This document shows positions 19,848 through 39,644 of a stretch of DNA of 64,000 nt, piece after piece; position 1 is the stretch's first letter, and every line of letters starts with the position of its first letter. The stretch is taken from assembly GCF_001705235.1 (NCBI RefSeq), contig NZ_MCGV01000001.1:1116001-1180000 (forward strand). Reading direction: 5' to 3'. This stretch comes from Clostridium pasteurianum (GTDB lineage: Bacteria > Bacillota > Clostridia > Clostridiales > Clostridiaceae). The translations under genes and the position numbers were made by a program. Under the pieces are notes generated by a model. It had not been told where the DNA came from, made no database searches, and saw nothing but the letters and a program-made list of their open reading frames with translations.

Positions 19848-21456
<1,609 letters not shown>

Positions 21457-26079: not shown

Positions 26080-26706
26080 ATGAAAAATTCTTATGCAAAA
26101 ATAGTGGTCAGTGGTTCTCCAATATCAAAATCCAATTTTAAATTATCTAATGTAAATGGAAGAGCTATTTTGCCATATAATTCTGGAAAATATTATGATA
26201 GATATGCTGTATACGAAGAAACTATAGCTTACGAAGCAAGATCACAAAATCCAAATACAATAATTTCTGAATCTGTCATTGCTGTCTTAAAGGTTTTTTA
26301 TAAAAGTGAAAAAAGGCATCCGGACACAAATAATATAACTAAAAGCATTTTTGATGGTATAGAAAAAAGTGGAATTATAATAAACGATGCTCAGGTGAGA
26401 AGAATAATTATAGAGGAATCTTATGATTCAAAAAATCCTAGATTTGAATTGGAGCTTTTCCCCGAAAGTAAATTTAAAATGCAGTATTCTATACTAAAAA
26501 AAGACGAAGAAGATGAACCTATAAATTATGATCCACCTTCCAATAAAAAAAGACTTAAACCTAAAATTTTAAAAGAAAAAAAATCACCAAAAGAAGACAC
26601 ACTAGTTTGCAGTATTTGTGGTAAATCTATAACTAAAGATACTGCTATCTTTGCCGATAAAGGTAATACTGTGCTCTGTAAAAATTGCTTAATGAAGTCA
26701 TTTTAG
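26080..26706 (+). CDS. RusA-like nuclease domain with C-terminal zinc ribbon
   Basis: Residues about 1-130 resemble RusA family Holliday-junction endodeoxyribonucleases: the core HPDTNNITKSIFDGIEKSGI followed by INDAQV matches the family pattern of three acidic residues and a lysine (PDxDN..K...D.L....DD). Here the middle Asp of the first motif is Asn. A Lys/Pro-rich linker leads to a C-terminal zinc ribbon with two CxxC pairs (CSICG, CKNC) in about the last 30 residues. This fusion is unlike the roughly 120-aa phage RusA. AAGGAG precedes the ATG. It starts 72 bp after a large palindromic repeat and overlaps aroQ tail to tail by 9 bp. Confidence 0.72.
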   Translation: MKNSYAKIVVSGSPISKSNFKLSNVNGRAILPYNSGKYYDRYAVYEETIAYEARSQNPNTIISESVIAVLKVFYKSEKRHPDTNNITKSIFDGIEKSGIIINDAQVRRIIIEESYDSKNPRFELELFPESKFKMQYSILKKDEEDEPINYDPPSNKKRLKPKILKEKKSPKEDTLVCSICGKSITKDTAIFADKGNTVLCKNCLMKSF

Positions 26707-27132
26707 CAGCATATTTTTAAGAGCCATAATGCCCATAATGTATCCATAAAATCCAAATCCACAAATTTGTCCAACGCAAGCAGGTGCAGTAACAGATTTT
26801 CTTCTATATTCTTCTCTTGTATGTATATTACTTATATGTACCTCAACTGTTGGTATACTTATTGATTTTATAGCATCATATATTGCTATGCTATAATGGG
26901 TATATGCACCTGGATTTATCACTATACCGTCAACCTTGTTATAAGCTTCTTGAAGAAAGTTTATTATTTCCCCCTCAATATTGCTTTGAAGAGTTTCTAT
27001 TTCAATTCCAAGCTTATTCCCCTCTTCTTTTACATACTTACATAAATCCTCATAAGTATTTTTACCATATATATTCTTTTCCCTTATTCCTAGGAAGTTT
27101 AAATTAGGTCCATTTATAACAAGAATCTTCAT
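26698..27132 (-). CDS. aroQ: Type II 3-dehydroquinate dehydratase
   Basis: Third step of the shikimate pathway (dehydroquinate to dehydroshikimate). Motifs: NGPNLNFLGIRE at the start with the catalytic Tyr in the flexible loop (NIYGKNTYEDL), NPGAYTHYS in the middle, EVHISNIHTREEYRRKS with the catalytic His. I use the ATG at 27132, which has AAAGGAAATG a few bases upstream; the ORF extends six codons further. Length 144 aa is standard. It is the last gene of the aro operon, only 1 bp from aroK. Confidence 0.96.
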   Translation of the reverse strand: MKILVINGPNLNFLGIREKNIYGKNTYEDLCKYVKEEGNKLGIEIETLQSNIEGEIINFLQEAYNKVDGIVINPGAYTHYSIAIYDAIKSISIPTVEVHISNIHTREEYRRKSVTAPACVGQICGFGFYGYIMGIMALKNMLLK

Positions 27133-27133
27133 T

Positions 27134-27628
27134 CTAACATTTCCTTTCAAAATAACATTTTATATTTCCCACTGTTTCCTCTATAATGAGTTCATTTAAA
27201 ACTTCAAAATCGCAATTTTTTTTATAAAGCTCATGTCTATCTCTGTAAAGCTTAAAAAGCTTATCTTTTCCTTCCTTCAATAGAGGTCTATTGGACGTAT
27301 CCACATCTTCTATTATTTTGTCAACAGGCCTGTTTATAAATACAATTTTACCTGTTTTTCTTAAGGCTATCATATTTCTTTCTCTTGTAACTGCTCCACC
27401 ACCTGTTGATATAACAGAGTTTTGCATGTAACTCAATTCTTCTAAAGCCTTACTTTCTAAATCTCTAAAAAAATCCTCACCTATATTAAACATTTCAGAT
27501 ATTCTCATGTTATTTTTAATTTCTAAATAATCATCTGCATCATAAAATTTCATATTTAATTCTTTTGATAAAAGCTTTCCAATTGTGGTTTTTCCGCATC
27601 CCGGCATGCCTATAAGCACCAAATTCAT
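27134..27628 (-). CDS. aroK: Shikimate kinase
   Basis: Phosphorylates shikimate to shikimate 3-phosphate with ATP. The P-loop is GMPGCGKTT at residues 8-16, the shikimate-binding DxD-like segment is YDADDYLE, and STGGGAVTR is the conserved Gly-rich shikimate/ATP loop. Length 164 aa is typical. It overlaps the preceding CM/aroE gene by 4 bp (ATGA-type coupling), showing translational coupling inside the aro operon. Confidence 0.96.
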   Translation of the reverse strand: MNLVLIGMPGCGKTTIGKLLSKELNMKFYDADDYLEIKNNMRISEMFNIGEDFFRDLESKALEELSYMQNSVISTGGGAVTRERNMIALRKTGKIVFINRPVDKIIEDVDTSNRPLLKEGKDKLFKLYRDRHELYKKNCDFEVLNELIIEETVGNIKCYFERKC

Positions 27629-28728
27629 GGTTTAACCTTCTTTTCAATAATATTAAAGATTTCGTCAGCTACACTATCCTCTATAGAAATATCATTCCAT
27701 ATTTCCTCTGAAGATATAGCCTGACTCACTAGCATATATAAACCATTTACTGCTGTTATACCTGCATCCTTAGCATATTTTAGAAATAGGGTTTCAACTG
27801 GATTGTATATCAAATCTACAGCAGCAGAATATTTAGCTATAGTGCTTTTATTAACAGGTGATTCATCTACTTTAGGATACATGCCCTTAGGAGTACAGTT
27901 TATGATTACATCTCCACTTTTACTTTCAAGTTCTTTATAATTTATGACATCAAAATCTTTATAAGCATCCCTTACTCTTTCAGGATTTCTGCTAACAATA
28001 TATATTTTTTTAGCATCACTATCTTTTAAGTACTGTATTACTGCCTTAGCAGCTCCACCACTTCCAAGAACCATACAGGTTTTATCCTTAACTTCAACAC
28101 CAAATTTTTTGAGCATCTTTCCAAACCCAATATAATCTGTATTAAATCCCATTATACCTTTTGCAGTAAATTTCAAGGTATTTACTGCACCTATCTTTTT
28201 AGCTTCATCGGAAACTTCACATAAGTCTTCCATAACATCAACTTTATAGGGTATGGTAACATTGAGACCCTTGCATTTTATAATTTCAAAGGTGTCCACT
28301 GCTTGATGCAGTTTTTTTCTAGGAATCTCAAATAAATTATATATTCCCTTAATACCTATTTTACCCATTATAAGCTTATGAATATCTGAAGAATAGCTGT
28401 GTCCAAGCTTTTCTCCTATAAGTCCATAAATGTTCGTAAATTCTTTTTCATGACCTTCAGCTGAAATCTCTTTTCCCTCTAATTTTTTACTGAGCTCAAT
28501 AAAATTAGTATAAAATTCTTTAAGGGGTTCGGCAAACTTTTCATTCCTTAAAAAAGATACATTTTTGCTTATTACCTTTTTTTCACGTACTGCATCAAGT
28601 ACAGGAAGATTATTTTTCTTCTTATATTCAGCAACTTCCATAACAAGTTTCATTCTTTTTTCAAAAAGCTCTACCATATTCCTATCAACAGCATCTATTT
28701 CTTTTCTTATTTCATTAAGATCTTTCAT
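27625..28728 (-). CDS. aroE: Chorismate mutase / shikimate dehydrogenase fusion
   Basis: Bifunctional protein. Residues about 1-88 are an AroQ-class helical chorismate mutase (EIRKEIDAVDRNMVELFEKR, the usual first helix); about 100-367 are shikimate dehydrogenase with the substrate motif NVTIPYK, NTDYIGF, and the NADP-binding GSGGAAKAV. It therefore joins an early pathway step (dehydroshikimate to shikimate) to the branch step from chorismate to prephenate for Phe and Tyr. TyrA from the same operon uses the prephenate. The start has a usable ribosome site; it lies 7 bp after aroC. Confidence 0.95.
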   Translation of the reverse strand: MKDLNEIRKEIDAVDRNMVELFEKRMKLVMEVAEYKKKNNLPVLDAVREKKVISKNVSFLRNEKFAEPLKEFYTNFIELSKKLEGKEISAEGHEKEFTNIYGLIGEKLGHSYSSDIHKLIMGKIGIKGIYNLFEIPRKKLHQAVDTFEIIKCKGLNVTIPYKVDVMEDLCEVSDEAKKIGAVNTLKFTAKGIMGFNTDYIGFGKMLKKFGVEVKDKTCMVLGSGGAAKAVIQYLKDSDAKKIYIVSRNPERVRDAYKDFDVINYKELESKSGDVIINCTPKGMYPKVDESPVNKSTIAKYSAAVDLIYNPVETLFLKYAKDAGITAVNGLYMLVSQAISSEEIWNDISIEDSVADEIFNIIEKKVKP

Positions 28729-28735
28729 TAAATTA

Positions 28736-29812
28736 TCACCTCAAAATAATATCTAATACAGCAAGTGCCGCTGCAGCTTCTACTACAGGCACAGCTCTCA
28801 AAACAATGCACGGATCATGTCTTCCTTCAATGCTTATTTCAGTATTCTCTTTAGTCTTCATATTTATAGTCTTTTGAGGCTTATAAATAGATGGCGTTGG
28901 TTTAAACGCAGTTCTGAATACAAGAGGCATTCCACTTGTTATTCCACCTAAAATTCCACCATTATTGTTTGAATATGTTTTTACATTTCCGTCTTCAACA
29001 TAAAAATCATCATTTGCCTGTGAGCCATTCATCTTAGTTATATTAAATCCTTCACCAAATTCCACACCTTTTACAGCTGGAATGGAAAAAAGCATATGAC
29101 TTAAAGTACTCTCACAAGAATCGAAAAAAGGATCACCCTTTCCTGTCGGAAGGTTTAAAATGCAGCATTCAATAATTCCTCCAACAGAATCTAGATTATT
29201 TTTAGCTTCTAATATAACCTTTTTCATTTCCTCTCCAACTTTATCATCTAAAACAGGAAACTTTTTCTCAGTTAATTTTGTAAGAGTTTCTCCATCTATA
29301 TTAACCTTATCAAAATATTCTTCTTTAGTATTCTTAATACTTAAAATATGACTTCCAATTATTATATTTTTCTTTCTTAATATTTGTTTTGCTACAGCTC
29401 CTGCAAAAACAAGTGGTGCTGTAATTCTACCTGAAAAATGGCCACCGCCTCTATAATCATTAAAACCTTTATATTTTACAAATCCAGTGTAATCAGCATG
29501 ACCTGGCCTTGCAACATCCTTTAGCTTTGAGTAATCTTTAGAATGCTGATTGCCATTCCATATAAGTGCACACATAGGAGTTCCTGTAGTTTTTCCGTTA
29601 AAGAAGCCGCTCACAATCTCAAAACTATCCTTTTCGTTTCTCTGAGTTGAATACTTATTTCTTCCTGGTGCTCTTCTTTCCATTTCCCTATTTATAAAAT
29701 CAAGATCAAGCTCTATTCCAGGCTCTAAGCCATCAATTACTATGCCAATAGCCTTTCCATGAGATTCTCCAAAAATAGATAACTGTACTTTATTGCCCCA
29801 TGTTCCACTCAC
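28736..29812 (-). CDS. aroC: Chorismate synthase
   Basis: FMN-dependent elimination of phosphate from EPSP to give chorismate. Signatures: GESHGKAIGIVIDGLEPG at the N-terminus, RPGHADYTGFVKY, FNDYRGGGHFSGRITA, and the C-terminal RHDPCIVLRAVPVVEA. 358 aa is full length. The start overlaps the end of aroA by 23 bp, so the two are tightly coupled. Sixth gene of the operon. Confidence 0.97.
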   Translation of the reverse strand: MSGTWGNKVQLSIFGESHGKAIGIVIDGLEPGIELDLDFINREMERRAPGRNKYSTQRNEKDSFEIVSGFFNGKTTGTPMCALIWNGNQHSKDYSKLKDVARPGHADYTGFVKYKGFNDYRGGGHFSGRITAPLVFAGAVAKQILRKKNIIIGSHILSIKNTKEEYFDKVNIDGETLTKLTEKKFPVLDDKVGEEMKKVILEAKNNLDSVGGIIECCILNLPTGKGDPFFDSCESTLSHMLFSIPAVKGVEFGEGFNITKMNGSQANDDFYVEDGNVKTYSNNNGGILGGITSGMPLVFRTAFKPTPSIYKPQKTINMKTKENTEISIEGRHDPCIVLRAVPVVEAAAALAVLDIILR

Positions 29813-31073
29813 ATATATCGCCTCCTAACTTTTTAAAATCCTGCCAGAACTCAGGGTACGACTTAGAAACGCATTGGCTTCCATTTATAGTTACAGCTTC
29901 CTCACATTTAAGCGCCGCAATTCCAAGAGCCATAGCTATTCTATGATCATTCCAACTTTCAACAATACCGCCCTTTAATGTTTTCTTCCCATTAATTATA
30001 AGTCCATCCTCTAATTCGGTTACATCTGCCCCCAATTTATTGAGTTCTGTCGCCATGGCTTTTAATCTATCTGACTCTTTTATTCTAAGTCTTGCTGCAT
30101 TAATTATCTTCGTAGTTCCTTCGCTTAGCGCCCCAACTACAGCTAAAATAGGAACTAAATCTGGACACTGAGATGCATCTATAGTAATTCCATGAGTAAT
30201 GGATTTTTTAGCATTAAAATTCTGCCTACTTATATTACCTTCCATTTTTTCTAAGATATCAACTATAATTTTATCTCCCTGAAGAGAACTAAAATCTAAG
30301 TTCTTACAATTTATATTTCCATTTAAAACACCTGCTGACATCCAAAAAGCCGCCTGTGAAAAATCCCCTTCCACCTTATAATTTACAGCTTTACCTCTCT
30401 GATTACCTTTTATGTTAAAACTTTTATAATCATTGTTTTCTATTTCTATACCAAATCTTTTTAGCATATCAAGAGTCATATCTATGTAGCCTACAGATTC
30501 TAAATTAGTTGTTATGTTAATTGTCGAATCACCATCTAAAAATGGCAGTGAAAACATGAGACCACTTATAAACTGAGAACTAATATTTCCCGGAATATTA
30601 AACTCTCCAGCCTTTAACTTTCCATTAATTTCAAGTGGAAGTACTCTATCCTCTGGATGCTCATACTTTATTTTTTGTTCATCAAATATATCAAAATATG
30701 TTTTTAATGGTCTATACGCTAACTTACCGTGTCCTTCAAAAACAGTATCTCTTTTCTTTATAAGTGCTATTGGAATTAAAAATCTAACAGTAGAACCTGA
30801 CTCACTGCAATCTATCCATACTTTTTCTTCAGAATCGCTATGCTGTCCCTTTATTTTTAATTTTTTACCTTCATCTGACGATATTATTAAAGCCCCCAAT
30901 TTACTCATTCCACTGCATGTAGCCTTTATATCTTTGGAATAGCTCACATTATCTATAATACTTTCTTGTTCACAAAGAGATGCACATATTATAGCTCTAT
31001 GCGCTAAACTCTTTGATGGTGGTATCTTTATATCTCCCTTTAATGTACATGGATTTATTTTAACACACTTCAA
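29790..31073 (-). CDS. aroA: EPSP synthase (3-phosphoshikimate 1-carboxyvinyltransferase)
   Basis: Adds the enolpyruvyl group of PEP to shikimate 3-phosphate. Visible motifs: PPSKSLAHRAIICASL near residue 18 (S3P binding), SGSTVRFLIPIALI near 91, and RIKESDRLKAMATELNKLGA near 342 followed by DHRIAMALGIAAL. At residues 91-97 the sequence SGSTVRF differs from the usual GNSGTTMR, and PEP-binding Gly96 is replaced by Val or Thr depending on alignment; this resembles class II-like clostridial enzymes. 427 aa. Confidence 0.96.
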   Translation of the reverse strand: MKCVKINPCTLKGDIKIPPSKSLAHRAIICASLCEQESIIDNVSYSKDIKATCSGMSKLGALIISSDEGKKLKIKGQHSDSEEKVWIDCSESGSTVRFLIPIALIKKRDTVFEGHGKLAYRPLKTYFDIFDEQKIKYEHPEDRVLPLEINGKLKAGEFNIPGNISSQFISGLMFSLPFLDGDSTINITTNLESVGYIDMTLDMLKRFGIEIENNDYKSFNIKGNQRGKAVNYKVEGDFSQAAFWMSAGVLNGNINCKNLDFSSLQGDKIIVDILEKMEGNISRQNFNAKKSITHGITIDASQCPDLVPILAVVGALSEGTTKIINAARLRIKESDRLKAMATELNKLGADVTELEDGLIINGKKTLKGGIVESWNDHRIAMALGIAALKCEEAVTINGSQCVSKSYPEFWQDFKKLGGDICEWNMGQ

Positions 31074-31087
31074 AATTCATGCTCCTT

Positions 31088-32158
31088 TCAAACTACCCGA
31101 AGATATTTACTAGCTTCACTTTTTTCTATTTTCTTTATAAAACAGCCGCCTATATCATTTAAAAGAATCAAATTTATAAAGTTTCCTCTACTCTTTTTAT
31201 CAAGTGCTGCTATTTCATAAATTTTTTCATTTTGAAGTCCCTCTACATCACAACTTAATTTATATTTTTCAATTACTTCTCTTAATTTTTGAGTAGTACC
31301 CTCCTTTGTAATTCCAAGCTTCTCACTATTTTTAGTTATAGCATACATGCCATATGCAACACATGCCCCATGAGTATATTTATCATAGTGGAAAAATTCC
31401 TCTACTGCATGACCTATAGTATGCCCAAAATTAAGTATCATCCTCTCGCCGTTGTCCTTTTCATCATTTTCAACAACTTGCTTTTTAATACTGCAGCAGG
31501 TATGTATAACATAATCTATATTCTCCATAAGTTCTGCATCATCTTTAAATCCTGCTAGCTTATTAAATAACTCTTTATCACGTATAGCCCCATATTTTAT
31601 AACTTCTCCCATACCATCATGAAAAAATTTATCACTTAAGGTTTTTAAACATAACGGATCTATATACACAGCCTTAGGTTGATAGAAATTTCCAACAAGA
31701 TTTTTACCTGTATCTAGATCAACAGCAACTTTGCCTCCAATACTGCTGTCAATTTGAGCTAAAAGCGAAGTTGGAATTTGAATGTACGGAACACCTCTCA
31801 AATAAGTAGCTGCTGCAAAGCCTCCTAAATCTCCCACGACCCCACCGCCAAGTGTAATTATAAGATCACTTCTTGTTAGCTTAAATTCAGAAAGTTTAGA
31901 ATATATATCTGTTAAAGTTTTTATGCACTTACTCTTCTCTCCAGCTTTTACAACTATCTTAAATACATGAAAACCGCTTTTTTCAATATTCTTTTGAATT
32001 TTTTCTCCATAAAATTTATCCACATTAGTATCAGTTATTAAAACTATTTTCTCTCCAGAATAAATTTCTGAAATTCTTTCACCTAAACTGTTCATTATAC
32101 CTTTTTCAATAAAAATACTATAGCTATTTTCACCTAAATTCATATTTAAAATTTTCAA
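31088..32158 (-). CDS. aroB: 3-Dehydroquinate synthase
   Basis: NAD- and metal-dependent cyclisation of DAHP to dehydroquinate. The NAD-binding segment GGGVVGDLGGFAAATYLRG, the motif IPTSLLAQIDSSIGGKVAVD and metal ligands in ILNFGHTIGHAVEEF are all present. 356 aa is typical. It overlaps tyrA by 4 bp and lies 14 bp before aroA in transcription order. Confidence 0.97.
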   Translation of the reverse strand: MKILNMNLGENSYSIFIEKGIMNSLGERISEIYSGEKIVLITDTNVDKFYGEKIQKNIEKSGFHVFKIVVKAGEKSKCIKTLTDIYSKLSEFKLTRSDLIITLGGGVVGDLGGFAAATYLRGVPYIQIPTSLLAQIDSSIGGKVAVDLDTGKNLVGNFYQPKAVYIDPLCLKTLSDKFFHDGMGEVIKYGAIRDKELFNKLAGFKDDAELMENIDYVIHTCCSIKKQVVENDEKDNGERMILNFGHTIGHAVEEFFHYDKYTHGACVAYGMYAITKNSEKLGITKEGTTQKLREVIEKYKLSCDVEGLQNEKIYEIAALDKKSRGNFINLILLNDIGGCFIKKIEKSEASKYLRVV

Positions 32159-33018
32159 ATTATCCCATCCTTTTTTGAAGAGGCCTTTTCTAAAATTCTT
32201 TTAATATTATCCGTATGCCCTTCTTCTATAGCTTTTTTTAGTTCATCTATACTATCTTCAAAATCATTTATTACCTTAAGAAGATTATCTTTATTCTTCG
32301 TAAAAAGCTGACACCATAAGTCAGGATTAATTCTTGCAACTCTTGTAGCATCCCTAAAACTTCCTCCAATAAAATGTTTTATGCTGCTATCTACATAACT
32401 GGAGTTCATAAGAGAAACAGCTATAACATGCGGAAGTTGACTTGTAAGTGCAATTATCTCATCATGCCTTTCAGGTGTAACTTCTGTAATGTCTTTAAAT
32501 CCAATAGCCCTTACAAATTTCCTCATAGCATCTATAGTTTCTCTCTTATTTTTAGATGTAGGAGTTAAGATATAATTTGCATTCTTAAATATTGCCCCAT
32601 CAGCATTATCAAATCCGCTTAATTCCTTTCCTGCCATAGGATGCCCACCCAAAAATTCAGCATCATTTCCCAAAATATTCTGTATATAGTCTATATTTTT
32701 TCCCTTTATACCAAGTACATCTGTAATTATAGAACCTTTTTTAAAATTGCTCACATTGGATTTTACAAACTCTATCAATGCTTCAGGATATATAGCTATT
32801 ATAACAATATCTGATTTTTTAAGAGGGATATACGCATTATTCATGCTGTATCCCTCATCTATTATATCCTTTTTAGCTGCTTTTTTTAGGGTATTTTCAT
32901 TTAAATCAATTGCCCATATCCTACCTTTGTTCACTTTTCTAAATGCCATGGCATAGGAACCACCTATAAGCCCAAGTCCAACAATAGTTAAATTAATCTT
33001 AAAGTCTCCATCATCCAT
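32155..33018 (-). CDS. tyrA: Prephenate dehydrogenase
   Basis: NAD-dependent oxidative decarboxylation of prephenate to 4-hydroxyphenylpyruvate, the tyrosine branch. The Rossmann motif GLGLIGGSYAMAF is at about residues 13-25; GGHPMAGKELSGF carries the catalytic His; LTSQLPHVIAVSL matches the helical dimerisation domain. At 287 aa it lacks a C-terminal ACT domain, so direct tyrosine feedback through ACT is not expected; operon-level control by the leader could substitute. It lies 25 bp after aroF. Confidence 0.95.
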   Translation of the reverse strand: MDDGDFKINLTIVGLGLIGGSYAMAFRKVNKGRIWAIDLNENTLKKAAKKDIIDEGYSMNNAYIPLKKSDIVIIAIYPEALIEFVKSNVSNFKKGSIITDVLGIKGKNIDYIQNILGNDAEFLGGHPMAGKELSGFDNADGAIFKNANYILTPTSKNKRETIDAMRKFVRAIGFKDITEVTPERHDEIIALTSQLPHVIAVSLMNSSYVDSSIKHFIGGSFRDATRVARINPDLWCQLFTKNKDNLLKVINDFEDSIDELKKAIEEGHTDNIKRILEKASSKKDGII

Positions 33019-33043: not shown

Positions 33044-34057
33044 CTATATTTCTCTTCCTTCTATTTCTGCAATCGCTCTAACTTTCTTCATAACTTCATC
33101 AAATTTATCAGGCTTTATTGACTGTTGTCCATCACTCTTAGCATTAGCAGGATCATTATGAACTTCTATCATAAGACCATCTGCCCCAACTGCTGTTGCA
33201 GCTTTAGCTAAAGGTTCAACCATCCACCACATTCCAGCAGCATGGCTAGGATCAATAATTATAGGTAAATGACTTAATTTCTTTATTGCTGGTACAACAC
33301 TTAAATCAAGTGTATTTCTAGTGTAAGTTTCAAAAGTTCTTATTCCTCTTTCACAAAGTATTACATTTTCATTTCCTTCTGACATTATGTACTCAGCCGC
33401 CATTAAGAATTCTTCAATTGTTGCACATAATCCTCTCTTTAAAAGAATAGGTTTATTAGTTTTACCAAGTTCCTTTAAAAGCGTGAAGTTCTGCATGTTT
33501 CTTGCCCCAACCTGAATGACATCAACATCCTCTACAAATTTATCAACAAAATCTGTACTCATAATTTCTGTAACTATAGGAAGTCCTGTTTCCTTTTTTG
33601 CAATTTTAAGAAGTTCTAATCCTTCAAGTTCTAACCCCTGAAAACTATATGGTGAAGTTCTAGGCTTAAAAGCACCACCTCTTAAGAAATTTGCCCCACT
33701 TTGTTTTACTCTTTTAGCTATTTCGACTATTTGTTCTTCACTTTCTACTGAACAAGGTCCTGCTATAACTGCAAGCCTTTTTCCACCTATTTTATTTCCA
33801 TTAACATCAATTATTGTATCCTTAGGATGGAAATGTCTTCCTGCCTTCTTGTATGGTTCTTGAACTCTTACAACTTTTTCTACACTTTCACGTGCCTGAA
33901 TTCTTTCTACATTAACTCTACTTGTGTCTCCTATTACCCCTATAACAATATAATCATGACCATGTGATATAGTTGTTTGACAACCCTCTTTTTCTATGAA
34001 ATCCTTAATTTTTGTAATTTCTGATTTTTCAGTATCTTGTTTCAATATAACTACCAT
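33044..34057 (-). CDS. aroF: DAHP synthase, type I-beta with N-terminal regulatory domain
   Basis: Condenses PEP and erythrose 4-phosphate, the entry step of aromatic biosynthesis. Residues about 1-70 form the ferredoxin-like domain found in Thermotoga-type I-beta enzymes ([20 protein letters not shown]), which mediates Tyr/Phe feedback in that group. The KDPG-aldolase-like barrel follows with [34 protein letters not shown] and IIDPSHAAG. 337 aa. AAAGGGG lies 9 nt before the ATG. It is first in the aro operon, 33 bp downstream of the leader terminator. Confidence 0.96.
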
Positions 34058-34089: not shown

Positions 34090-34122
34090 TATAAAAAAAA
34101 TAAGGCTCAAATGAGCCTTATT
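34090..34122 (-). terminator. Attenuator terminator before aroF
   Basis: A perfect stem AATAAGGCTC / GAGCCTTATT (34099-34122 including a 4-nt loop) is followed on the minus strand by eight T. It lies between the leader peptide stop and the aroF ribosome site, in the direction of aro transcription, so it must be bypassed for expression of all eight genes. That placement is diagnostic of attenuation. Confidence 0.9.
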
Positions 34123-34136
34123 GTTTATAAACAATA
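34119..34136 (-). promoter_or_regulatory. Palindrome overlapping the attenuator
   Basis: The perfect 18-bp palindrome TATTGTTTATAAACAATA shares four bases with the base of the terminator stem. As RNA it could fold into a hairpin that competes weakly with the terminator, or it could be a protein site. A further hairpin (arms 34156-34165 and 34173-34182) covers the leader stop codon. The exact antiterminator is not obvious by eye. Confidence 0.5.
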
Positions 34137-34164
34137 CTTAATCTTTCAAATTCTTAATTATGTT

Positions 34165-34317
34165 TTAAACTGAAACATAATTTAAATTATAAAACTCATC
34201 AGAAGGAAAATTTATTATTTTTTTGTATACAAAAAAGCCAACGCTAAAAAAGTAATAAAAGCCTAGGCTAAAATAATAATAATTTTTAGTTGTAATTTCC
34301 TTCCTTATAGTATTCAT
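34165..34317 (-). CDS. Tyr/Phe-rich leader peptide of the aro operon
   Basis: A 50-codon ORF between the promoter and the attenuator. It begins MNTIRKEITTKN, continues YYYFSLGFYYFFSVGFFVY (residues 13-31, of which 12 are Tyr or Phe) and ends LNYVSV. In all it has 8 Tyr and 8 Phe and no Trp. GGAGTG lies 8 nt before the ATG (34315-34317). Ribosome stalling at these codons when charged Tyr- or Phe-tRNA is scarce would be expected to alter folding of the downstream hairpins and allow read-through, as in enterobacterial pheA or pheST leaders. The coding signal and layout are seen; the mechanism is inferred. Confidence 0.85.
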   Translation of the reverse strand: MNTIRKEITTKNYYYFSLGFYYFFSVGFFVYKKIINFPSDEFYNLNYVSV

Positions 34318-34358
34318 AACATCAACACTCCATATAATAAAATTTATTTAATGATGTA

Positions 34359-34388
34359 ATTATATATCATATATGCAACATATGTCAA
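34359..34388 (-). promoter_or_regulatory. Sigma-A promoter of the aro operon
   Basis: On the minus strand TTGACA (34388-34383), an 18-bp spacer, and TATAAT (34364-34359), both perfect matches to consensus. Transcription should start near 34352, about 35 nt before the leader peptide start codon and almost 300 nt before aroF. Confidence 0.85.
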
Positions 34389-34508: not shown

Positions 34509-35660
34509 ATGTCAATTTTACAATTAAAATCAAAAATAGTCTCATACAAATATAAGAGCAAAAAAAATATCACTTTATTTATAATTATAATTACTGCCTG
34601 TATACTTGGCATATATTTTGTAAATTCAAATGAAACTTTATACCAAAAATCAATTGCTAAAATATCATCCATATCTGAAACTAATTTTTATTCTAGAACT
34701 TCTGATGGAAAATATGAAAGCATGAAAAAGCAACATATAACTGCCGTAATTATGAATGGCACCTATATAGGTAAAAAAGTAAAACTTGAAAATACAGTTT
34801 CCTACTCTGGTGTAAACAACATAAATTTCAAAACGAATGATGAAGTCTTTATATCTACACCTAAAATCAAAGGAAAAACCATTTCTTCAAAAATACTTGA
34901 TCTTAAGCGTGATACCTACGTTTTATACATAATATTAATATTTATACTATTTATGATAATCATAGGTGGAATAAAAGGAATTCGCTCAATAGGAAGTGTA
35001 CTCGTTAATATACTAATATATTTCTCCGTAATTGAACTTTTTTTACACAATTTCAATTTAATATTTATATTTATAACCTCTGCCTTACTCTTTACGCTTT
35101 TGTCATTATTTATTGTAGGAGGAGTAAATAGAAAAACTATTTCTGCGGTAATAAGTACTTTAACTGGAACCACAATAACAATAATAATAGCTTTATTAAC
35201 TATAAAAATAAATAACGCCAGAGGTGTACGTTTCGAAGAATTAGAATTCTTAACCCATCCTCCAGAAAAAATATTTTATATAGAACTTTTAATAGGAACC
35301 CTAGGTGCTGTTATGGATATTGCAATTTCAATTTCTTCAGCAATAAATGAGCTCTATACTAAAAATCCTTCTATAAAGAAAAGTTCGCTCATAAAATCAG
35401 GATTTGAAATAGGGAAAGATATTATGGGGACTATGTCCAATACTATGCTCTTTGCTTATATCAGTGGAAGTATACCAATGATACTGCTTTTGCTTAGAAA
35501 TAGGATTCCAGTTTATAACATACTAAGTGAGAATTTATCACTTGAAATAATCCGTGCCCTTACTGGAAGTATTGGCATAGTAATAAGCATACCAATATCC
35601 ATATTCATCTCAATAGAACTTTTAAAACATAAATTGACTGGAGGGCTTAGAAAATCATGA
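34509..35660 (+). CDS. YibE/F family membrane protein, long form
   Basis: Integral membrane protein of the YibE/YibF-like family, 383 aa. An N-terminal membrane anchor (about residues 20-42) is followed by an extracytoplasmic stretch (about 45-135), then seven or so transmembrane segments to the C-terminus. Conserved YibE/F features are GGIKGIRSIGSVLVN and the polar segment GTLGAVMDIAISISSAINEL. AGGAGTTATATA precedes the ATG. Its end overlaps the next YibE/F gene by 4 bp (ATGA). Function of the family is not established; a transport role is often suggested. Confidence 0.85.
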   Translation: MSILQLKSKIVSYKYKSKKNITLFIIIITACILGIYFVNSNETLYQKSIAKISSISETNFYSRTSDGKYESMKKQHITAVIMNGTYIGKKVKLENTVSYSGVNNINFKTNDEVFISTPKIKGKTISSKILDLKRDTYVLYIILIFILFMIIIGGIKGIRSIGSVLVNILIYFSVIELFLHNFNLIFIFITSALLFTLLSLFIVGGVNRKTISAVISTLTGTTITIIIALLTIKINNARGVRFEELEFLTHPPEKIFYIELLIGTLGAVMDIAISISSAINELYTKNPSIKKSSLIKSGFEIGKDIMGTMSNTMLFAYISGSIPMILLLLRNRIPVYNILSENLSLEIIRALTGSIGIVISIPISIFISIELLKHKLTGGLRKS

Positions 35661-36418
35661 GTGTATCATTTGCATTATTAACTATTCTCTTTGTTTTAAT
35701 GATAATCATAGGCGGCACAAGAGGCGTAAAATCATTTTTTACATTGATCTTTAACTTTATAACTATGTTTATTTTGCTTGTACTTATAGGTGCAAAGTTT
35801 GATCCAATAAAAGTAACTATTATAGGCTGTATTTTGATAACTATAGTAACTCTATTTTTTATAAACAGCTTCAATTTAAAAACATTATCTTCATTGATTT
35901 CTGTTATCCTTGTTGTAATTATCACTATGCTTTTAATATATAAATTAAGTTATAACGCCAGAATCCAGGGCTTCTCAAAGGAAGAGGCAACTGAAATAGG
36001 TTATCTTTCAACTTACGTTCAATTAAATTTTTCTAAAATAGTCTCCTGCCAAATTTTATTTGGTTTACTTGGAGCAATAATTGATGTTTCGATTTCAATT
36101 TCATCCTCAATGCAAGAAATATATAAAAATGACCATTTAGCAGAAAAACAAAATTTATTTAAATCTGGAATCACTATAGGAAAAGATATAATTGGAACTA
36201 TGACAAATACACTGCTATTTGCTTATATAGGCAGCTTTATGACACTGTCAATATATTTCAGTGAACTTCATTATTCCTTCTCAACCATAATGAACTCTAA
36301 AATTTTTTGCAGCGAAGTATTTCAGAGCTTATGCAGTGGTATAGGCATAATTTTGATAATACCTGTAACTGCATTCGTAACTTCAGAGCTTTTAATATTA
36401 AAAAATAACATAAAATAA
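35657..36418 (+). CDS. YibE/F family membrane protein, short form
   Basis: 253-aa paralogue of the preceding protein without the extracytoplasmic domain. It has the same core motifs GGTRGVKSFFTLIFNF and GLLGAIIDVSISISSSMQEI, and about seven membrane segments. The 4-bp start/stop overlap suggests coupled translation and a heteromeric complex. It converges with the tetR gene, 29 bp away, with no terminator between them. Confidence 0.85.
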   Translation: MSVSFALLTILFVLMIIIGGTRGVKSFFTLIFNFITMFILLVLIGAKFDPIKVTIIGCILITIVTLFFINSFNLKTLSSLISVILVVIITMLLIYKLSYNARIQGFSKEEATEIGYLSTYVQLNFSKIVSCQILFGLLGAIIDVSISISSSMQEIYKNDHLAEKQNLFKSGITIGKDIIGTMTNTLLFAYIGSFMTLSIYFSELHYSFSTIMNSKIFCSEVFQSLCSGIGIILIIPVTAFVTSELLILKNNIK

Positions 36419-38872: not shown

Positions 38873-38940
38873 TCATCACACTCTCATAGTATAATAACTA
38901 TTCTGTGATAGCTTATTAAAATATATCATTGTTAAAACTA

Positions 38941-39452
38941 TGTACAAACCTTTAATTCAGATTTTTCGCAGCGCAGCGGAAGAAAATCTTCCTTGCCTTT
39001 ACCCTTTATGGGAATTAACAATATTTTGGAAACAATTTAAATAAAATTTTATAAATCTTAGGGTGATATTTTGAAAAGGCTTAGAAATTTGAATATTATC
39101 ATACACGAGGTTTGGGCGAAGCCCATTATCCTTCTTAACCATATAAAAGCACTCTTATCATATGCGAATTATAAAAAGCTTATCTCTGCATAAGCTTTTT
39201 ATTCACATTTTCCGCAGCACAGCGGAAGAAAATCTTCCTTGTCTTTACCCTCTATGGGAAGTAACAGTATTTTGGAAACAATTTAAATAAAACTCAATAA
39301 GACTTTGCTCCAAATAATGAAAAGACTTAGTAATTTTAATCTGTTTGAGCACTTTTTTCAGGGAGTTATTAAAAGTTTACTTCTGTTTAAACTTTTAATT
39401 CAGATTTTCCGCAGCGCAGCGGAAGAAAATCCTCCTTGCCTTTACCCTCTAT
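38941..39452 (-). repeat. Tandem truncated repeat elements with D modules
   Basis: Three D hairpins (CGCAGCGCAGCGGAAGAAAA type) occur at about 38963, 39209 and 39410, each followed by TCCTTGCCTTTACCC or near variants. The first two D modules precede arm 2 halves starting at 39010 (GGGAATTAACAATATTTTGG) and 39256 (GGGAAGTAACAGTATTTTGG). The first half is cut by an E2 motif (ACGAGGTTTGGGCGAAGCCC near 39106), the second at its apical region. These are 3'-end remnants of elements whose arm 1 is gone. There is no gene here. Confidence 0.75.
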
Positions 39453-39644
39453 GGGAAGTAACAATATTTTGGAAACGGTTTAAATAAAACTCAATAAGAC
39501 TTTGCCCCAAATAACGAAAAGACTTAGTAATTTTAATTTGTCTGAGCTTTTTCCCAGCGAGCTATTAAAATTTCTTAGTATTTTCATTATTTGGGGCTTA
39601 GTCTTATGAGTTTTATTTAATGTTCCAAAATATTGTTACTTCCC
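39453..39644 (-). repeat. Palindromic repeat element, class A, full
   Basis: Arm 2 begins GGGAAGTAACAATATTTTGG at 39453 and arm 1 ends with its complement at 39644. Inner stem sequence pairs GACTTTGCCCCAAATAACGA with CATTATTTGGGGCTTAGTC. The ltaS-type gene stop (TTA 39636-39638) is inside arm 1. Confidence 0.9.

Follow-up and report, generated by a model that had tools for sequence, protein, structure and literature searches.

A candidate Tyr/Phe leader-peptide attenuator in front of the aro operon of Clostridium pasteurianum and its relatives in Clostridia and Negativicutes

How a clostridial aro operon could sense the supply of aromatic amino acids is the question raised by a short reading frame, rich in Tyr and Phe codons, that lies between a promoter and aroF in Clostridium pasteurianum. 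In Firmicutes, T-boxes or TRAP are the usual expectation for such control. Enteric leader-peptide attenuators such as trpL, hisL and the pheA leader consist of an ORF with cognate codons, the pairings 1:2, 2:3 and 3:4, and a terminator before the first gene; in trp-type leaders the control codons lie within segment 1 and the stalled ribosome covers that segment, an arrangement that is not required of the class. We analysed the locus within a stretch of 64,000 nucleotides (positions 1,116,001 to 1,180,000 of contig NZ_MCGV01000001.1), which we call the window and whose coordinates are used throughout, and compared it with relatives from other genomes. The sequence evidence for an attenuator is strong: the locus is very probably a transcription attenuator that works through the ribosome and reads the availability of charged tRNA-Tyr and tRNA-Phe, and by its predicted mechanism it is a leader-peptide attenuator, a variant in the position of its segment 1 and in its hairpin H1. 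Its parts, with the basis of each assignment in brackets, are the following.

34359..34388, minus strand: sigma-70-type promoter, TTGACA-18 nt-TATAAT (12/12 consensus matches)
34328..34331, minus strand: GGAG, likely ribosome binding site of the leader ORF (sequence)
34165..34317, minus strand: leader ORF, 50 codons plus stop (ORF list, homologues)
34296..34320, minus strand: segment 1, the start codon and first codons, P1 partner of segment 2 (folding, permutation test)
34225..34281, minus strand: control codons 13-31, 12 of 19 being Tyr or Phe (sequence, conservation)
34236..34269, minus strand: H1 hairpin, with AGC-xxx-GGC codon groups as stem and Tyr/Phe codons as loop (covariation, codon shuffles)
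34186..34209, minus strand: segment 2, portion pairing with segment 1 (pairing analysis)
34189..34200, minus strand: segment 2, antiterminator portion, whose partner is the terminator 5' arm and loop; 12 bp, -12.3 kcal/mol (pairing, permutation, folding)
34156..34182, minus strand: stop-codon hairpin, 10 bp, nested between segments 2 and 3 (folding)
34119..34136, no strand: 18-bp palindrome overlapping the terminator start (sequence scan)
34110..34121, minus strand: segment 3, the terminator 5' arm and loop, partner of segment 2 (pairing, folding)
34093..34122, minus strand: intrinsic terminator (3:4) including its T-run (terminator scan)
33044..34057, minus strand: aroF, 3-deoxy-7-phosphoheptulonate synthase, first gene of the operon (TIGR01361, NF006421)
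26698..33018, minus strand: remaining operon, tyrA, aroB, aroA, aroC, chorismate mutase-aroE fusion, aroK and aroQ (profile matches)

The features that the original prediction had read from this region were confirmed. The consensus promoter (34388-34359) is the only one to score 12/12 among the 9 promoter-like sites of an 801-base scan (8.3 expected), and the 50-codon ORF (34317-34165) lies 10 nt past GGAG and contains 16 Tyr or Phe codons by count, 12 of them within residues 13-31, and no Trp codon. This is the richest 19-residue Tyr/Phe stretch among the 546 ORFs of 20-120 aa in the window (12 residues, against 10 for the next one), and the maximum in 20 block-shuffled windows was 9-11, below the 12 of the leader. 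Profile matches identified eight aro-pathway genes, ordered aroF-tyrA-aroB-aroA-aroC-(chorismate mutase/aroE)-aroK-aroQ, in agreement with the predicted operon for chorismate, prephenate and the Tyr precursor. The Rho-independent terminator is also present, as the single one found (0.1 expected) with its stem at 34122-34099 and the T-run after it, but by recount the T-run lies 35 nt before aroF and not 33. The stop-codon hairpin and the 18-bp palindrome do exist, yet neither belongs to the switch found here, which would actually be built from segment 1 at the ORF start, segment 2 in the ORF 3' part and the terminator 5' arm. The leader fold beats 200 of 200 dinucleotide shuffles (z = -3.4). 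The Rfam scan of the window detected no family at gathering score, T-box (RF00230) included, and the original prediction had likewise seen no T-box signature; the leader stretch gave eight matches, all sub-threshold (best E 0.1), and none of 17 leader loci gave a family at gathering score. Within its own genome no second copy of the leader was convincing, the next match having an E of 0.09 and no ORF of at least 90 aa listed downstream.

Among 40 named loci of AroF relatives, the leader was found in 36, which include Clostridium species, Lucifera, Phascolarctobacterium and other Acidaminococcaceae, together with L031, cut by the contig end and with its core recognised by eye, and L036 and L041, which have divergent aromatic ORFs; in L013 the leader is situated further upstream. 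The four loci counted without a leader at aroF are L018 (the second tandem aroF copy, judged by eye), L029 (a gene close upstream), L038 (a T-box) and L019, whose contig ends 14 nt upstream and which cannot be judged. A search profile of 24 leaders (A1) matched 95 of 146 genomes in the family sample (E<=0.001), 69 of 391 in the class sample (E<=0.01) and 13 of 398 in the phylum sample (E<=0.0001), and all 4 genomes sampled from the same genus carry the leader. At E<=0.0012, a cut-off chosen after the results were known, 55 of 55 class matches are followed directly (taking the first same-strand ORF of at least 90 aa) by a gene of the aromatic pathway, in 53 cases, or by one for an SSF symporter, in 2, the aromatic-pathway genes being aroF in 47 cases (own included), tyrA in 2, chorismate mutase/aroE-like in 2, aroB in 1 and prephenate dehydratase in 1. 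At E<=0.01 the class search yielded 70 matches, of which 68 were examined and two inside long frames (G325, G328) omitted; 57 of the 68 precede such genes, and the 13 weaker ones (E 0.0014-0.0088) comprise 2 leaders and 11 that are not leaders by frame and context.

Leaving out those 11 non-leaders and two weak own-genome matches, 93 leaders were compared, and this comparison supports the predicted Tyr/Phe attenuator. A terminator was recognised in 84 of the 93; these 84 leaders, the nine others being removed, form one test set, and removal of ten near-duplicates (similarity >0.9) leaves a nonredundant set of 74. Alignment A2 (MAFFT) holds 40 of the 84, of clostridial type and hand-picked after the pairings had been seen, and its counts favour the tested structures over slid ones because these structures come from single rows (L054, L002, L015).

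The aromatic codons, whose conservation the original prediction had proposed to check in related clostridia, are kept together with the ORF. In the 72 of 83 nonredundant leaders that have the second SxG motif and could be aligned on it (11 of 83 were dropped), the position -2 from the anchoring Phe/Tyr is aromatic in 68 (Phe/Tyr 36/31) and the position -1 in 67 (Phe/Tyr 15/50); the anchor itself, aromatic by construction, is Phe in 62 and Tyr in 10. Since a Phe-Tyr swap alters the middle base of the codon, it is the amino acid class that is kept, which argues for translation of the leader ORF. Because ATG had been preferred when start codons were assigned, start-codon conservation was not used as evidence. 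In other species the first SxG motif often contains a Trp codon (SWG); this codon belongs to the H1 stem, where Leu, Gln, Arg or His can take its place, and Trp sensing is therefore not established. Searched against Pfam and NCBIfam, 24 leader peptides gave no family that recurred in a second member, the best E being 0.1. The median spacing between the final control codon and segment 2 is 25 nt (quartiles 19 and 29, 84 leaders), so segment 2 would be clear of the stalled ribosome in most leaders.

The two SxG motifs form the strands of H1, and the Tyr/Phe codons its loop. On A2, 88% of the H1 cells are paired, compared with 25-50% when the structure is slid, the covariation score was reached in 0 of 500 shuffles, and four pairs are changed on both sides, a number reached in 40 of 500 shuffles. 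Synonymous-codon shuffles of the 84 leaders with the motif (9 of the 93, without it, were left out) gave a mean core energy of -6.8 against the -11.2 observed (p = 5e-14), and the observed energy falls in the top 5 of 100 shuffles in 45 of these 84. The SxG serine codon is AGC in 93 of 94 motifs, whereas AGC accounts for 359 of the 1607 aroF serines and for 113 of the 310 serines in the remaining parts of the leaders. In L004, L006 and L052 the first motif has GGU as its glycine codon while the partner of this codon encodes Asn (AAC) in place of Ser, with the pair kept. Because Ser and Gly codons follow H1 pairing, the conserved non-aromatic residues are explained by the RNA. This bears on the alternative of nascent-peptide arrest, in which the peptide, through its FSAGYF motif, would stall the ribosome upon free Phe or Tyr, comparable to TnaC for Trp. 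Such an arrest could account for motif conservation that extends beyond the aromatic residues, but it is very unlikely in view of the pairing followed by the Ser/Gly codons, of paired changes (GGC/AGC to GGU/AAC) that alter the peptide and keep the helix, and of the free interchange of Phe and Tyr. As part of a ribosome-mediated attenuator, H1 would probably act as a polymerase pause hairpin keeping ribosome and polymerase in step.

Segment 2 is found in the 3' part of the ORF, which in most clostridial-type leaders holds a segment like UCUAAUGAGUUUU, complementary to the terminator 5' arm and loop AAGRCUCAUUAG. This segment reads SNEF in many leaders and, in another frame, LMS-stop in L006-L008 and L037. 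Divergent lineages swap both antiterminator partners together, as in L083, L086, L096 and L099, and for these four, as for L102, L080, L103 and L030, no more than 7 of 83 foreign arms match the own arm in pairing. Over the 84 leaders, the own arm outdoes the reversed arm in 71 (Wilcoxon 4e-10) and the average over 60 shuffled arms in 77, reaching the top 5% in 41. When arms were exchanged among the 74 nonredundant leaders, the own mean of -11.43, compared with -8.92 for the permuted arms (sd 0.28; best permutation -9.85), was reached in 0 of 5000 permutations. On A2, where the antiterminator was trimmed from 13 to 11 pairs because a loop gap misaligns two of them, 81% of the cells are paired, against 32-45% when slid by 1-3 columns, and the covariation score was reached in 10 of 500 shuffles. 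In a whole-leader search, just 24 of the 84 pairings came among the best 5 of 100 when ranked against dinucleotide shuffles, with a median rank of 14. Eleven of the 84 leaders (L020, L021, L022, L023, L026, L032, L034, L040, L084, L093 and L098) have a weak antiterminator, outperformed by 15 of 60 shuffled arms, and L020-L023, L026, L032, L034 and L040 are all named Phascolarctobacterium, Acidaminococcaceae or Acholeplasmataceae. The SxG codons, tried as an alternative partner of the terminator arm, were rejected as a general solution, the best pairings lying mostly in the ORF 3' part; these codons form H1, not the antiterminator.

The third helix, P1, has as one strand the opening codons of the ORF, in many leaders reaching from shortly ahead of the start codon to around nt 28, and as the other strand segment 2 with the bases preceding it; in L054 and L055 the helix extends to 22 bp. 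P1 competes with the antiterminator for bases of segment 2. The own P1 is better than the shuffle mean in 74 of 84 leaders, and in the exchange test on the 74 nonredundant leaders its mean of -15.18, against -8.90 for permuted partners (sd 0.37; best permutation -10.33), was reached in 0 of 5000. Its covariation score on A2 was reached in 0 of 500 shuffles, and 64% of its cells are paired there versus 67% when slid by one column, the register being uncertain in this alignment. Mutually exclusive structures, which the original prediction had proposed to look for by folding, were found in this way and are backed by compensatory changes. In the window, segment 1 (34320-34296) precedes the control codons (34281-34225), unlike the trp-type arrangement.

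Three covarying helices could also belong to an aptamer or protein-binding leader that acts on the terminator with the ORF being incidental, and the palindrome next to the terminator might serve as a protein-binding site; the aromatic positions, however, are kept as amino acids and not as nucleotides, as the F/Y interchange indicates, and Rfam has no matching family, which leaves this reading still less probable than peptide arrest. The least probable of the alternatives is that the leader governs the translation of aroF, by re-initiation or coupling, and not termination. P1 does cover a start codon, the leader's own, which would fit translational control, but a terminator follows in 84 of 93 leaders, its 5' arm is the antiterminator partner, and in the window 107 nt separate the leader stop from the aroF start.

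For the attenuator, we propose the following sequence of events. With Tyr and Phe plentiful, the ribosome would complete the leader ORF and depart, after which segment 1 would pair with segment 2; with segment 2 sequestered and unavailable, the terminator would form and transcription would halt before aroF. When Tyr or Phe is scarce, the ribosome would stall within codons 13-31, segment 1 would be blocked by this ribosome or by ribosomes queued behind it, and the exposed segment 2 would pair with the emerging terminator 5' arm and loop, allowing transcription to enter the aro operon. Sequence and comparison supply the parts, their conservation and the three competing pairings, from which we infer that the ORF would be translated, that the ribosome would stall on it, that H1 would contribute to pausing and that the system would respond to Tyr and Phe.

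Folding calculations were carried out with and without ribosome masks. For the free full-length leader of the window, the calculated fold comprises P1, H1, the stop hairpin and the terminator. When the nascent leader, extending to the terminator loop, was masked from its 5' end to 15 nt past the stalled A-site codon, the 12-bp antiterminator was obtained whichever of the 12 Tyr/Phe codons in the cluster held the ribosome. Masking the 5' part of the full-length leader gives the terminator and not the antiterminator (-12.3 for the latter vs about -13 kcal/mol), and since the terminator is the best fold once its 3' arm is present, the antiterminator must win by forming first. Of the 74 nonredundant leaders, 68 have P1 and 70 have the terminator in the free full-length fold. 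One ribosome placed mid-core yields 5 or more antiterminator pairs in 25 of 74, compared with 23 of 74 when there is none; when segment 1 is also blocked by a trailing ribosome the antiterminator appears in 51 of 74, the window's own leader giving neither helix under this mask, and with a ribosome at the stop codon it appears in 7 of 74. Segment 1 must therefore be blocked, because thermodynamic folding favours the antiterminator only then. A lone stalled ribosome lies downstream of most of segment 1, and queued ribosomes or steric effects around the stalled ribosome likely provide the block. A ribosome that sits on the stop codon and hides segment 2 was considered as the sole cause of termination and rejected as general, since such a ribosome covers at least 5 nt of segment 2 in only 34 of 71 leaders, and release and P1 must explain the remaining terminations.

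A further reading, to which we give somewhat less than an even chance, is that these leaders represent an undescribed architecture shared by many families of Clostridia and reaching Negativicutes, with nearly the whole switch inside the ORF, segment 1 at the start codon, readout by queuing or crowding, and the sensor codons in the loop of a covarying hairpin. Because segment 1 spans the start codon, closure of P1 might then both release the terminator and stop further translation of the leader.

If the leader works as proposed, leader-peptide attenuation would be a broadly conserved system in Clostridia, and its distribution suggests how many clostridia and some Negativicutes, including gut Phascolarctobacterium, may control the shikimate pathway. 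In some genomes the attenuator would moreover exist as duplicated copies before scattered aro genes (aroF, aroG-type, aroK, aroE): two genomes have four leader copies each, before aroF, aroG-type synthase, aroK and aroE homologues. The loci L127-L137 present 2-4 leader copies per genome before aroF, aroG-type DAHP synthase, aroK and aroE, resembling a scattered regulon. The leader could also be used as an annotation marker. In genomes G114 and G160, leader and terminator precede an SSF symporter (PF00474; assigned by Pfam in L085, with L094 similar by eye), which is therefore predicted to be an aromatic amino acid transporter. Finally, three RNA helices appear to act simultaneously as constraints on a single short coding sequence, an overlap of codes.

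Rfam was also run on 10 further loci, comprising six family members without leader match and L013, L018, L029 and L038, and detected a T-box only in L038. This Negativicutes locus (L038:3599-3806) carries the T-box before aroF and T-box-like sequences after it, suggestive of a regulator swap. Three MAGs labelled Acholeplasmataceae gave aroF relatives, and two of them (L020, L026) carry the leader. The aroF genes of these MAGs (L018, L020, L026) fall among Acidaminococcaceae relatives, pointing to possible mislabelling.

Compared with the enteric attenuators, the clostridial leaders share the ORF with cognate codons, the 1:2, 2:3 and 3:4 pairings and the terminator before the first gene; they differ in that segment 1 precedes the control codons and extends across the start codon, in that the control codons lie in a separate covarying hairpin, H1, and in that segments 1 and 2 are mostly inside the ORF. 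T-box leaders (RF00230) also sense tRNA charging and control amino acid genes in Firmicutes, but none was detected at the clostridial leader, and the relative L038 has one before aroF.

The original prediction regarded leader-peptide attenuation as rare in this phylum and knew of no description of this one. That claim goes too far, since leader-peptide attenuators are on record in Firmicutes: 'regular' His leader peptides (hisS/hisZ, his) were presented in 2010 (PMC2965389), his attenuators are known from Eubacteriales and others (PMC9413887), and a Leu-rich ilv attenuator from Staphylococcus aureus (PMC5794164); a 2010 survey by Lopatovskaya and colleagues is cited in PMC4833913. According to the accessible portions of these sources, the his and ilv systems belong to the same mechanism class and phylum but concern other amino acids and operons, and the his attenuators were described for small groups of species. 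The claim was also too strong with respect to candidate Phe/Tyr uORFs. The available text of PMC8632094, a Breaker-laboratory paper, describes uORFC-13-1, with 24 examples before aroF in Acholeplasma and environmental sequences only, and suggests Phe-dependent attenuation. By that description, the only basis of our comparison, uORFC-13-1 shares with the clostridial leader an ORF with Phe codon(s), a terminator and the position upstream of aroF, and differs in its narrower range and in that no antiterminator is named; it is possibly an outlying part of the same family. The possible mislabelling noted above may bear on its Acholeplasma-only range. Fig. 6b of PMC6429828, a five-genome study from the Breaker laboratory that includes Clostridium novyi NT, shows two candidate Phe/Tyr uORFs before shikimate genes; by legend and text they resemble the present leader in codons and position, but these give no mechanism or distribution, and the source genome is unstated in the text. 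The general idea is thus not new, since Firmicutes attenuators and candidate Phe/Tyr uORFs are already published. The portions consulted of PMC2494555 and PMC11109978 contain no mention of a clostridial aro attenuator, and the open-licence full-text literature, which includes few subscription journals, gave no account of this switch or its breadth; as far as that literature reaches, what is new is the switch itself, together with its covariation, breadth and regulon.

Other features of the window were noted in passing. Two adjacent YibE/F-family genes (34509-36418) are divergent from the aro leader promoter. Three 190-nt direct repeats (38920-39552), with 73-100% identity to the reference copy, have 44-nt inverted arms nearby and result in similar short ORFs, and an ORF of glycosyl hydrolase family 1 (20635-21456) is fragment-like, its best stretch matching profile positions 161-371 of 453.
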